A stretch of DNA of 51,229 nt from Marinitenerispora sediminis. Lineage in GTDB: Bacteria; Actinomycetota; Actinomycetes; Streptosporangiales; Streptosporangiaceae. Below are positions 43,230 through 46,540 of this stretch, piece after piece. The notes beneath the pieces are model-generated. The model did not search any database and had not been told where the DNA came from. It worked only from the letters and a program-made list of their open reading frames with translations. Position numbers and translations under genes: made by a program. Numbering within the stretch: the stretch's first letter is position 1; each line of letters starts with the position of its first letter. The DNA is taken from NCBI RefSeq assembly GCF_003336425.1, contig NZ_QEIO01000023.1:1-51229 (forward strand), read 5' to 3'.

Positions 43230-43604
43230 ATGACCGTCGCCACCCTGGCCCCGGACCGTACGTGGATCCCCGCCTGCCCGTCGAACCGGCTCGCCGCGGA
43301 GCGTGGCGTGGCCGTGCTGCTGCCGGACGGCCGGCAGGCGGCGCTGTTCCGCACCTTCTACGGCGAGCTGTACGCGGTCGACAACATCGACCCGTTCAGC
43401 GGCGCGGCCGTACTGTCGCGCGGCATCGTCGGCGACCGGGCCGGCGAGCCCACCGTCGCCTCACCGATGCTGAAGCAGGTCTTCGCACTGCGCACCGGGG
43501 CCTGCCTGGACGACCCCGAGGTCCGCCTGGACACCCACCCGGTGCGCGAGCGGGGCGGCGTCGTCGAGATCGCCGCCGCCCCCGACGCCCGCACCCGGAC
43601 ATGA
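43230..43604 (+). CDS. nirD: Nitrite reductase (NADH) small subunit
   Basis: A 124-residue Rieske-fold protein that associates with NirB. The NirD form lacks the Cys/His ligands of true Rieske proteins; here the corresponding loops read NIDPFSGAAVLSRGIVGD and SPMLKQVFALRTGACLDDP, characteristic of NirD. GTGGAGGTG precedes ATG 43230, 5 bp after nirB. Its stop overlaps the nnaR ATG (ATGA). It has no cofactor of its own that I can see and is thought to be structural or electron-transfer-assisting in the family. Confidence 0.93.
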   Translation: MTVATLAPDRTWIPACPSNRLAAERGVAVLLPDGRQAALFRTFYGELYAVDNIDPFSGAAVLSRGIVGDRAGEPTVASPMLKQVFALRTGACLDDPEVRLDTHPVRERGGVVEIAAAPDARTRT

Positions 43605-44776
43605 ACCGCCTCGCCGAGCCGGTCGACGTGCTGGGCGCCCCCGCACCCGCTGCCCCGATCGAGCCGCTGGCCGGATTCACGGTGGCCGTCACGGCGGCCC
43701 GTCGCGCGGACGAACTGGCGGCGCTGCTCCGCCGCAAGGGCGCCGAGGTGCTCTGCGCCCCGGCGCTGCGGATCGTGCCGCTCAGCGACGACCGCCGGCT
43801 GCGCGCCGTGTCCACCACGCTGGCCGAGCGCCCCGCCGACATCGTCGTCGCCACCACCGGCATCGGCTTCCGCGGCTGGGTCGAGGCATGCGAGACCTGG
43901 GGACTGGCGGAGCCGCTGCTCACCGCCATGCGCTCCTCCCGGCTGATCGCCCGCGGCCCCAAGGCGAAGGGGGCCATCCGTGCCGCCGGGCTCACCGAGG
44001 AGTGGTCGCCTCCCTCCGAGTCCTCCGGCGAGGTCCTCGACTACCTGCTGGAACGCGGTGTGTCCGGTCTGCGGGTCGCCGTCCAGCTGCACGGGGAGCC
44101 GCTGCCGGACTTCTGTGCGGCGCTGCGGATGGCCGGCGCCGAGGTCGTGGAGGTCCCGGTGTACCGGTGGACCACTCCCGAGGACGTCGCCCCACTGGAC
44201 CGGCTGATCGATGCGGTCGCCGCCGGGCAGGTCGACGCCGTCACGTTCACCAGCGCGCCCGCCGCCGCCGGGCTGCTGGAGCGGGCCCGCGTCACCGGCG
44301 CGGAGCGGCGGCTGGTCGCGGCGCTGCGCGGCGCGACGCTCGCGATGTGCGTCGGCCCGGTCACGGCGGGTCCGCTGACCGCGCGCGACATCCCGGCCGT
44401 CTGGCCGGCCCGCGCGCGGATCGGCGCCCTGGTCAAGCGGCTCGCCGAGGAGCTGCCCGAGTCCGCCCCGACGCTGCCGGTGGCCGGCCACGTGCTCCGG
44501 CTGCGCGGTCAGGCGGTGCTGCTCGACGGCGAGCTGCGCCCGGTCTCGCCCGCGCTCATGCGGGTGCTGCGCGAACTCGCTCGGCGGCCCGGCCAGGTTC
44601 GCGCCCGCGCCGAGCTGCTCGCCTCCCTCGGCGGCGACGCCGACGCCCACGCGGTGGAGACCGCGGTGGCCCGGCTGCGCGCCGCGCTCGGCGACCCCCG
44701 CATCATCCAGACCGTTGTCAAACGCGGCTACCGGCTGTCCCTCGACACGGGCGACTGCGACCCCCGGAGCGAGTGA
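43601..44776 (+). CDS. nnaR: Uroporphyrinogen-III synthase-winged helix fusion, NnaR-type regulator
   Basis: A 391-residue two-domain protein. Residues about 20-285 are a HemD-like uroporphyrinogen-III synthase fold (FTVAVTAARRADELAALLRRKGA, VATTGIGFRGW, AVTFTSAPAAAGLLE). Residues about 295-385 are an OmpR/PhoB-type winged helix (VLLDGELRPVSPALMRVLRE, ETAVARLRAALGDPRIIQTV, KRGYRL). This architecture is that of NnaR, a co-activator with GlnR of nitrate/nitrite genes in Streptomyces. Whether the HemD part is catalytic is not clear from sequence. Lying inside the nirBD operon, it probably regulates both nitrogen operons here and itself. Confidence 0.9.
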   Translation: MNRLAEPVDVLGAPAPAAPIEPLAGFTVAVTAARRADELAALLRRKGAEVLCAPALRIVPLSDDRRLRAVSTTLAERPADIVVATTGIGFRGWVEACETWGLAEPLLTAMRSSRLIARGPKAKGAIRAAGLTEEWSPPSESSGEVLDYLLERGVSGLRVAVQLHGEPLPDFCAALRMAGAEVVEVPVYRWTTPEDVAPLDRLIDAVAAGQVDAVTFTSAPAAAGLLERARVTGAERRLVAALRGATLAMCVGPVTAGPLTARDIPAVWPARARIGALVKRLAEELPESAPTLPVAGHVLRLRGQAVLLDGELRPVSPALMRVLRELARRPGQVRARAELLASLGGDADAHAVETAVARLRAALGDPRIIQTVVKRGYRLSLDTGDCDPRSE

Positions 44777-44888
44777 ACGGAGAGCGGAGCCTTCGTGGCG
44801 AGTGAACGGTGGAGCGGGTTCTTCGTGGCGAGTGAACGGTGGAGCGGGTTCTTCGTGGCGAGTGAACAGAGAACGGAGCCCTCGTGGC
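44771..44888 (+). repeat. Tandem ~30-bp repeats duplicating a translation-initiation region
   Basis: Four direct repeats of 29, 30, 30 and 29 bp occur at 44771-44799, 44800-44829, 44830-44859 and 44860-44888; the two middle copies are identical. Each holds GAGTGAACGG, a GGAGC/GGAG purine box and, 7-9 bases later, TCGTGGC, that is a Shine-Dalgarno-like sequence plus a GTG. The last copy leads into the chelatase gene. Confidence 0.85.
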
Positions 44889-44917
44889 GGATGAACGGAA
44901 GGGGGCGAGCCAGGTGA
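44795..44917 (+). CDS. Repeat-encoded small ORF coupling nnaR to the chelatase gene
   Basis: A 40-codon ORF starts at the GTG of repeat 1, 19 bases after the nnaR stop, with GGAG boxes at 44779-44788 in front. It encodes two exact VASERWSGFF decapeptides and then VASEQRTEPSWRMNGRGRAR. Its TGA (44915-44917) overlaps the chelatase GTG at 44914 by 4 bp, the standard coupling arrangement of this genome. The fourth repeat is 29 bp, so it leaves the frame but restores that overlap. The peptide itself may have no function, and its translation is inferred. Confidence 0.45.
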   Translation: MASERWSGFFVASERWSGFFVASEQRTEPSWRMNGRGRAR

Positions 44918-45609
44918 GCGGGCCGGACCCCACGCTGCTGCTCGCGGTGCACGGCACCCGCGACCCCCGCGGCACGGCCGTCGCGCACGGGCTGGCCCGG
45001 CGGGTGGCCGCGCTCGGGGGCATGCCGGTGCGGCTCGGGTTCGCCGACGTGCTGGCCCCCGACGTGGGCGAGGTCGCCGGTGCCATCACCGGCCCGGTGG
45101 TCGTGGTGCCGGCGTTCCTCGCGGCCGGCTACCACGTGCGGGTGGACATTCCCGCGCAGCTCGCACGGGCCGGCCGCGCCGACGCCCGTGTCACCGAGGC
45201 GCTCGGCTCCGATCCGCGGCTCGTCGCCACCGCCGCCCGCCGTCTGCGCCGGGCCGGTTACCGGCCCGGGGACGCGGTCGTGCTCGCCGCGGCGGGGTCC
45301 TCCGACCCGGCCGCGCGCGCCGAGGTGGCCGACGCCGCCGACCGCCTCGCCCGGGAGCTCTTCGCCCCCGTCCGGGTCGGCTACATCGCCACCGGAGCGC
45401 CGACGGTCGCCGACGCCGTCGCCGGGCTGCGCGCCGCGGGCCACCGGAGGGTCGCCGTCGGCTCGTGGCTGCTGGCACCGGGCCTGTTCCACACCCGGCT
45501 GTCCGGCAGCGGTGCCGACGCCGTCGCGGCGCCGCTGTGCCCGGACGACGCGGTCGCCGACGCCGTCGTCGCCCGCTTCCGGGCGGCGGTGCTCCCGGCG
45601 GCGGTCTGA
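44914..45609 (+). CDS. Sirohydrochlorin chelatase (CbiX/SirB family)
   Basis: A 231-residue CbiX-type metal chelatase inserting iron (siroheme) or cobalt into sirohydrochlorin. It is the duplicated form: half one begins LLLAVHGTRDPRG with the metal-binding His, and contains PAFLAAGYHVRVDIP with the second His. The second half has LAAAGSSDPAARAEV and VGSWLLAPGLFHTRL. GTG 44914 has GGAAGGGGG ten bases upstream and overlaps the repeat ORF stop. GTG 44884, within the last repeat, is an in-frame alternative giving ten more residues. Siroheme is the NirB cofactor, which explains its place at the end of the nirBD-nnaR group. The methyltransferase that makes precorrin-2 is not in the window. Confidence 0.88.
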   Translation: MSGPDPTLLLAVHGTRDPRGTAVAHGLARRVAALGGMPVRLGFADVLAPDVGEVAGAITGPVVVVPAFLAAGYHVRVDIPAQLARAGRADARVTEALGSDPRLVATAARRLRRAGYRPGDAVVLAAAGSSDPAARAEVADAADRLARELFAPVRVGYIATGAPTVADAVAGLRAAGHRRVAVGSWLLAPGLFHTRLSGSGADAVAAPLCPDDAVADAVVARFRAAVLPAAV

Positions 45610-46540
45610 CCGCGCCCGAGTGACGCCGCGGCCCTCGCGCCGCGCCTCCGGGCCGGTGGCCTGCCGCCGCGCGCCCGGACCGGGCGACCGCGCCCGAAAC
45701 CGCGCCCCGGGGAGCGGGGGACACCCGGGTGCGTACCGCCGCCCCAGCGGGCGGTCCCGGTCGTCGGGCGTCCTACCGGGATCACCGGGGGGTCGGAACC
45801 GCCGCGGCAGCGCCTGCCCGGGCCGCCGCGCGGTGGTGAGCGTTCTCCGGCCGGGCGGCGCGGAGGCCCGGCCACGGCCGTCCGTCCCCCGCCTCCCGGT
45901 GCGCTGGAACGCTTCGGAGCCGCCGCTTCCATGCCGGGCTGGGCCCCGTCCTTTCCCGCCTCCGGGCGGCGCGGGAGTGCGTCCCGCGGGGCGTGGCGGG
46001 GGGCGATGCTGGTGCTGTGGCCCGGTTCCGGTGCCGATGCGGCTGTCCGGCGATGTGCTTCCAGGCGCCGTCGAGGAGCCGGCGGCGGTGCCGTCCTGCG
46101 GTGGGCGCCCGGGGCCGTACCGTTCGGGCTGCTCCCGCCGGGAGGCGGTACGGGGGCAGCTGGGAAGGCACGGGTGGCCGGCGGCGACCGGCCTCCCGTC
46201 GCTTCCTGCTGTGCGGGTCGGCCTCTTCCTGCTGTGCGGGTCGGCCTCTTCCTGCCGTGCGCGTCGGCCTCGCGCATGTGGCGGGGATGCCGTGGGGCTG
46301 TTCGGAACCGGTGCGACCCGGCCGGCGGCGGCAGCGGGGAGCGCCGGGGACCGGCCGCCGACCGCGCGGACGGCGCACGCGGCCGCGGCCTGCCACGGAC
46401 CCGCGACCGGCCGAGCGGCCCGCGGTGCCCGGATCCCGTTCCGGTCGGCCACGGCGTGGCCGGAACCGGCATCGCCGGTGATCCGCTGCCATTGCGGGGA
46501 ATACCGGTCATGGCCGGTGATCCCCCACGCGAGGAGCGGC
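45610..46540. other. 930-bp gene-free GC-rich stretch with a 23-bp triplicate
   Basis: No frame has convincing coding character. A tandem triplicate of a 23-bp unit (starting CTTCCTGCTGTGCGGG, ending TCGGCCT) occupies 46202-46270; copies 1 and 2 are identical and copy 3 differs at two bases. The last 10-20 bp hold the GAGGAG ribosome site of the next gene. Nothing else is recognised. Confidence 0.5.

Follow-up and report, generated by a model that had tools for sequence, protein, structure and literature searches.

A REP-like dispersed repeat family in Marinitenerispora sediminis and its probable insertion between an nnaR-like gene and a sirohydrochlorin chelatase gene

The tandem array between the nnaR-like gene and the sirohydrochlorin chelatase-like gene of Marinitenerispora sediminis probably belongs to a family of short repeats that is scattered over the genome and inserts into new sites. 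At this junction the insertion appears to have parted the two genes, and a small open reading frame (ORF) would restore the -4 overlap with the chelatase start. The family is REP-like, is new within the literature searched and has clean insertions inside two genes. We read it as mobile because like units stand at 41 sites, because units are inserted, in frame, in dxs and in a FAD-binding monooxygenase gene and because the repeat is absent in relatives. Positions refer to the window, i.e., the whole stretch of 51,229 nucleotides analysed (contig NZ_QEIO01000023.1), unless a contig or locus is named.

The Repeat Array at the nnaR-Chelatase Junction

The junction comprises the following features:

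43601..44776, + strand: nnaR-like gene with uroporphyrinogen-III synthase (HEM4) and Trans_reg_C domains; start uncertain (home-made gene call)
44757..44785, + strand: degenerate first unit; weak covariance-model match (19.5 bits, E 4.2) and comparison with relatives
44773..44776, + strand: GTGA of the nnaR stop, marking the left edge of the putative insert, from the sequence; stop/start overlaps lie here in several relatives
44786..44814, + strand: repeat unit with GTG 44795; covariance model 34.6 bits; SD-like GGAG at 44786-44789, 5 nt 5' of the GTG
44795..44917, + strand: 40-codon small ORF, its TGA overlapping the chelatase start by 4 nt (GTGA); from the ORF list
44816..44844, + strand: repeat unit with GTG 44825; covariance model 32.1 bits; GGAG at 44811-44814, 10 nt 5' of the GTG
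44846..44874, + strand: repeat unit with GTG 44855; covariance model 27.6 bits
44875..44903, + strand: last unit with GTG 44884; covariance model 31.6 bits; SD-like GGAG at 44875-44878, 5 nt 5' of the GTG
44914..44917, + strand: GTGA at the right edge, 141 nt beyond the left GTGA, from the sequence; probable native chelatase start (compare GTGAGC in the relative L090)
44914..45609, + strand: sirohydrochlorin chelatase-like gene (CbiX); Pfam PF01903, E 4.3e-28 (scanned on 44884-45606)

The nnaR-like protein matches Pfam PF02602 (E 6.8e-39) and PF00486 (E 1.9e-11; scanned on 43622-44773), and its gene stops at 44774-44776. Downstream of it, four units of ~30 bp carry GTG at 44795, 44825, 44855, and 44884. 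The initial annotation had described four such repeats with GTG, which is borne out by the sequence, the ORFs and Tandem Repeats Finder (44769-44867, period 30, 3.3 copies, 92% match, score 163, the top of 11 rows in the window). The shorter step that it ascribed to the fourth repeat is present as well and is placed between the third and the fourth GTG, the three steps measuring 30, 30, and 29 bp. The unit sequence GTGGCGAGTGAACGG is found exactly at 44795 and 44825, with one mismatch at 44855 and with two mismatches at 44766 and 44884. Scanning for it with up to three mismatches gives 8 places in total vs. a shuffle mean of 4.09, a modest excess that 4 of 100 shuffles reach. The degenerate half unit at 44766 includes the stop codon TGA of nnaR itself, and the left half of the degenerate first unit (44757-44785) is, by comparison with relatives, probably native to nnaR. 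The junction as a whole reads CGGAGCGA-GTGA ... GTGA-GCGGGCC, with 141 nt between the two GTGA.

The TGA of the small ORF (44915-44917) overlaps the chelatase GTG at 44914 in the motif GTGA (44914-44917), in agreement with the initial annotation. Its peptide had been given as three in-frame VASERWSGFF repeats, of which two stand as (V/M)ASERWSGFF; the third reads VASEQRTEPS. The GTG at 44884 in the last unit shares the reading frame of the chelatase gene.

A different tandem repeat lies downstream of the chelatase gene at 46202-46271, where a 23-bp unit is present three times (CTTCCTGCTGTGCGGGTCGGCCT). An exact 24-mer from it was found in 6 of 334 loci, each a copy of that same place. An Rfam scan of 43500-46500 found no family at the array; two sub-threshold miRNA matches, both at 46156-46213, were dismissed as chance.

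Distribution of the Repeat Family

The initial annotation had proposed to look for the same repeat elsewhere in the genome. Related units were found at 41 sites, on both strands and next to unrelated genes. In the genome of M. sediminis (6.01 Mb, 441 contigs), the 16-base core is present at 45 places with up to two mismatches vs. 5 for the reversed control. A gapped form of the core matches 48 places vs. 4 for the control; in each of 199 others from the same family the number is 0-12, no different from the control of that genome. A narrower gapped pattern, without the CTCCCGTGG type, matches 23 places vs. 1 for its control. Arrays with other loop types were added by a covariance model and gapped patterns, and further arrays were picked by eye among the listed matches to a tandem pattern (119 places vs. 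99 for the control, mostly noise) and then read. The 41 arrays were read one by one, with 104 units cleanly read; their total is at least 41, the covariance-model search having scored 150 of 5762 first candidates. This number excludes weak single matches (L051-L054, L056, L057, L156-L159, L161, L163, and further single places), among which L158 looks like a true single unit.

Most arrays (38 of 41) lie outside predicted genes, and units lie inside three predicted genes. By hand count, 28 intergenic arrays are located between genes of the same direction, 3 between convergent and 6 between divergent genes, and 1 is gene-less on one side. Genes were called with a home-made caller based on three-base periodicity that missed at least one gene (at L047). 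Within same-direction gene pairs, 19 arrays are sense and 9 antisense (two-sided p 0.087). Pairs of arrays in opposite orientation within ~300 bp were seen at L045 (C418:27907-28173), L047 (C225:28306-28551), and L149 (C429:20670-20945), the last of which joins arrays of two different stem types.

Matches to a 23-mer with up to three mismatches are confined to 2 of 60 genomes, namely this one (23 times) and one relative (once). A plasmid collection yielded no match to the repeat, and no such array was present in an unselected sample of 256,125 bases, 14,772 of which are N. The exact 20-mer gave single places only, in Burkholderia aenigmatica and Geodermatophilus saharensis, in a collection of named genomes that perhaps does not include M. 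sediminis; both were taken as chance matches. Among the genomes searched, which included no second member of the genus, the family is private to this genome. The repeat is not reported in the open-access literature searched, some result lists of which were covered in part, so that this is not proof of absence.

Unit Anatomy and Folding

A typical unit consists of AGCCTCCCGT, a loop GGCG(n)TGA of 6 to 10 nt and ACGGGAG plus a short linker, and thus is palindromic in part. Arrays contain 1 to 8 such units in head-to-tail order. In 32 arrays they are spaced by 23-30 bp, with 27 bp being the commonest step (29 of 76) and 39 of 76 steps being multiples of three. The conserved core across units is CGTGGCG-TGAACGG. 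The loop is GGCGTGA in 9 of 41 arrays, GGCGAGTGA in 5 and GGCGGTGA in 4, with other types besides. The commonest loop yields GTG-GCG-TGA, so units with the 7-nt loop stop after two codons. Units are alike within one array, whereas loop and linker differ between arrays.

Counted from the loop, the fourth stem pair is G-C in place of C-G in one subfamily. It is paired in 39 of 41 arrays, vs. 30.7 in shuffles, of which 0 of 5000 reach 39; the flip may represent one ancestral event. The inner pairs 1-3 are fixed by the procedure of unit extraction, and pairs 5, 6, and 7 form in 32, 20, and 17 of 41 arrays, near the shuffles (29.3, 19.0, and 16.3). Among 40 units, mainly of the 9-nt-loop type, no covariation above shuffles was detected. 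Folding of the window array is on a par with its shuffles (z 0.30, 117/200); among seven typed units, a clear advantage over shuffles is seen in two (z -1.98 and -3.08) and not in the other five.

Upstream of the first units of the 41 arrays, the sequence is G-rich, with 20 to 30 of 41 arrays having G at each of seven positions from -12 to -6. At L224 and L258, this left flank is TGAGGGGAACAG, the TGA of which ends the preceding gene. The G-rich flank may reflect a preferred insertion target or a left end that extends further.

Insertions Inside and at the Ends of Genes

A single 27-bp unit in dxs (C394; DXP_synthase_N, E 4.5e-109) contributes nine in-frame codons (TGSRGVNGK) that are extra compared with 14 of the 16 relatives fetched from 60 matched genomes (its own included); in the remaining two, the loop at this place is longer in one and shorter in the other. 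The insertion of exactly one 27-bp unit into a housekeeping gene is evidence of mobility. The FAD-binding monooxygenase gene (C18) has 18 extra codons (54 bp), in frame, compared with all 19 relatives fetched. Its array consists of two units 27 bp apart, and the insertion probably corresponds to these two units. Neither gene shows any other loss or gain of length, and the edges of both inserts are ambiguous by a few bases, with no long target duplication visible. The third intragenic array is antisense to a biotin-carboxylase gene and lies in its N-terminal part; the start codon of this gene may be further in.

At the 3' end of genes, a unit supplies the last residues and the stop codon of an SBP_bac_5 solute-binding-protein gene (L040) and of an amino-acid permease gene (L223). 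Likewise, a GarR-like gene of the 3-hydroxyisobutyrate-dehydrogenase family (L039 4048-4905, C389 of the same genome) ends inside an array and is apparently truncated, with NAD_binding_11 matched only at 1-75 of 122.

The Junction in Relatives

None of 29 relatives' junctions has the core, either with up to three mismatches or in gapped form; the lone match with three mismatches among the relatives' loci lies beyond the junction (L095). Of 26 relatives in which the spacing between the nnaR stop and the HG motif was read by script, 13 have 17-32 nt and the other 13 have 56-524 nt, compared with 170 nt here. The junction of L094, additional to these 26, is tight too, and no distance is given for L104 and L112. 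In several relatives with a tight junction, stop and start overlap, and L090 reads GAGCGG-TGAGCG with the start GTGAGC.

Other features of the relatives' loci concern the chelatase gene. Three loci of one other genus with a longer gap (L102, L103, and L105) have in common a GC-rich element, CCTCCCGGGCAATGGGGCCCGG, ahead of the chelatase start; it may be a terminator or a regulatory site. In another relative (G018:C1:3697225-3697829), the chelatase match falls into two pieces that overlap, as a frameshift would produce.

A Model for the Junction and Its Alternatives

The simplest history of the junction would be an insertion of ~141 bp at a GTGA overlap. In 13 of 26 relatives, the junction spans 56-524 nt and lacks the repeat, so that length by itself is no proof of an insertion, and GAGTGA is also found in the unit's own loop. 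The ancestral overlap and all effects on translation proposed here are what we infer from sequence comparison. In the family, single units would move into new sites and arrays would then grow locally in tandem, as the likeness of units within arrays suggests. The array would probably have entered the GTGA stop/start overlap of nnaR and the chelatase gene, parting two genes that were perhaps translationally coupled before. The GGAG and GTG of the units would then provide the 40-codon ORF and with it a new GTGA overlap at the chelatase start, and the in-frame GTG at 44884 could extend the chelatase by 10 residues. Re-initiation and -4 coupling to GTG 44914 are possible because the first and the last full unit carry GGAG 5 nt before GTG. 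More speculatively, and with odds that we rate as low, the 27-bp repeat might move as a single exact unit by new machinery, with no detectable HUH (Y1) transposase, and multiply head to tail, while GTG and TGA in the loop would let insertions into stop/start overlaps repair broken coupling. Y1_Tnp (PF01797) had no match at E 0.001 in the 441 contigs; the positive control was found in 5 of 14 known genomes.

The initial annotation proposed a coupling device between nnaR and the chelatase gene, possibly one of variable repeat number. Such a device would have evolved to hand ribosomes from the first gene on to the second, with the number of repeats setting its strength. The geometry of this proposal is there, with SD-like GGAG, GTG and a small ORF ending GTGA on the chelatase start, and an array before a PAPS-reductase-domain gene (L146) similarly gives a 22-codon ORF whose closing ATGA lies on the following start. 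Of 16 arrays that precede a gene, 8 have one or more unit GTG codons from which the frame runs open into that gene, but this fraction does not differ significantly from one third (one-sided p 0.13), arrays covering several frames would exceed one third by chance, and among the eight are two that continue into weak ORFs of 70-85 codons. The genome-wide scatter of the units speaks against a module made for coupling: they lie on both strands, inside genes and in intergenic regions that are unrelated and in part convergent. Among the 28 arrays in same-direction pairs, 9 are antisense, and arrays are also found between convergent (3) and divergent (6) genes and within genes. The two findings that the initial annotation itself had named as speaking against its reading, scatter over unrelated sites and unit lengths that break the frame, are both observed: frame-keeping units are not confined to coupled junctions, with 39 of 76 spacings being multiples of three. 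Neither does a repeat peptide hold for the family, the frame of the 7-nt-loop type reading GTG GCG TGA and stopping after two codons, and relatives do without the repeat at this junction. A dedicated device is thus very unlikely, and coupling looks, from the sequence, like a by-product at some sites and not the reason for the repeat family. The family illustrates how start and stop codons carried within a mobile repeat can give it the look of a designed translation-coupling element.

Somewhat less improbable, yet still unlikely, is that the units are protein-binding sites or mRNA hairpins that control downstream genes. The conserved core CGTGGCG-TGAACGG, the location of several arrays directly upstream of start codons and the surplus of sense over antisense arrays in same-direction pairs (19 vs. 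9) would fit such a function. Yet the 14 neighboring or host proteins scanned have unrelated domains, arrays also occur within coding sequences, and the window copy has neither an Rfam family nor a folding signal. Slippage during local replication of native sequence, with no mobility involved, might account for the likeness of tandem units within an array, which suggests local duplication, but similar sequence at 41 unrelated sites and a single dxs unit that relatives lack contradict slippage as the sole cause, for which we see hardly any chance. As the way in which arrays grow, slippage is likely. The insertion of a mobile repeat remains our preferred reading of the junction.

Comparison With Known Repeat Systems

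Mycobacterial MIRUs occur in tandem copies, with units longer than 23-30 bp, and the finding that they insert at start codons reportedly goes back to Supply et al. in 1997. In PMC12548453, they are described as short, apparently mobile repeats that insert at start codons, with an inner ORF coupled to the next gene at a spacing of -4 nt. The junction array resembles them in the -4 overlap of its inner ORF, and its insertion into an overlap would, by comparison with relatives, be a further parallel. Insertion at a start codon fits this junction site, but it is not the rule of the present family, and the comparison is one of descriptions.

Rickettsia palindromic elements are palindromic repeats that lie in frame in unrelated coding genes (PMC10969869; PMC3733652). 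They measure ~150 bp according to the former source, and RPE-4 and RPE-6 carry a CGTC tag according to the latter. In-frame insertion into coding genes is also seen here, in dxs and the FAD-monooxygenase gene; again, the comparison is one of descriptions.

In size and dispersal, the family parallels REP. According to PMC3733652, REPs are palindromes of 20-40 bp that are mostly intergenic and in some cases in frame inside genes, supply stop codons to neighboring ORFs and include families limited to one species; untagged REP-like sequences are part of that account. The present family thus shares with REP its size, its place, the intragenic copies and the stop codons given to neighbors. Its palindrome is only partial, and head-to-tail arrays are usual. 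The REP tag is wanting, with GTAG in 3 and CGTC in 1 of the 41 first units and AGCC in 28 instead, and GTAG REPs go with a RAYT (Y1_Tnp) transposase, which had no match in the 441 contigs. The word start "actinobacteri" is absent from the main text of PMC3733652. Because tag and RAYT are lacking and head-to-tail arrays are usual, we call the family REP-like instead of filing it under REP. With it, the short palindromic mobile repeats would gain a family that has neither a tag nor a Y1 transposase.
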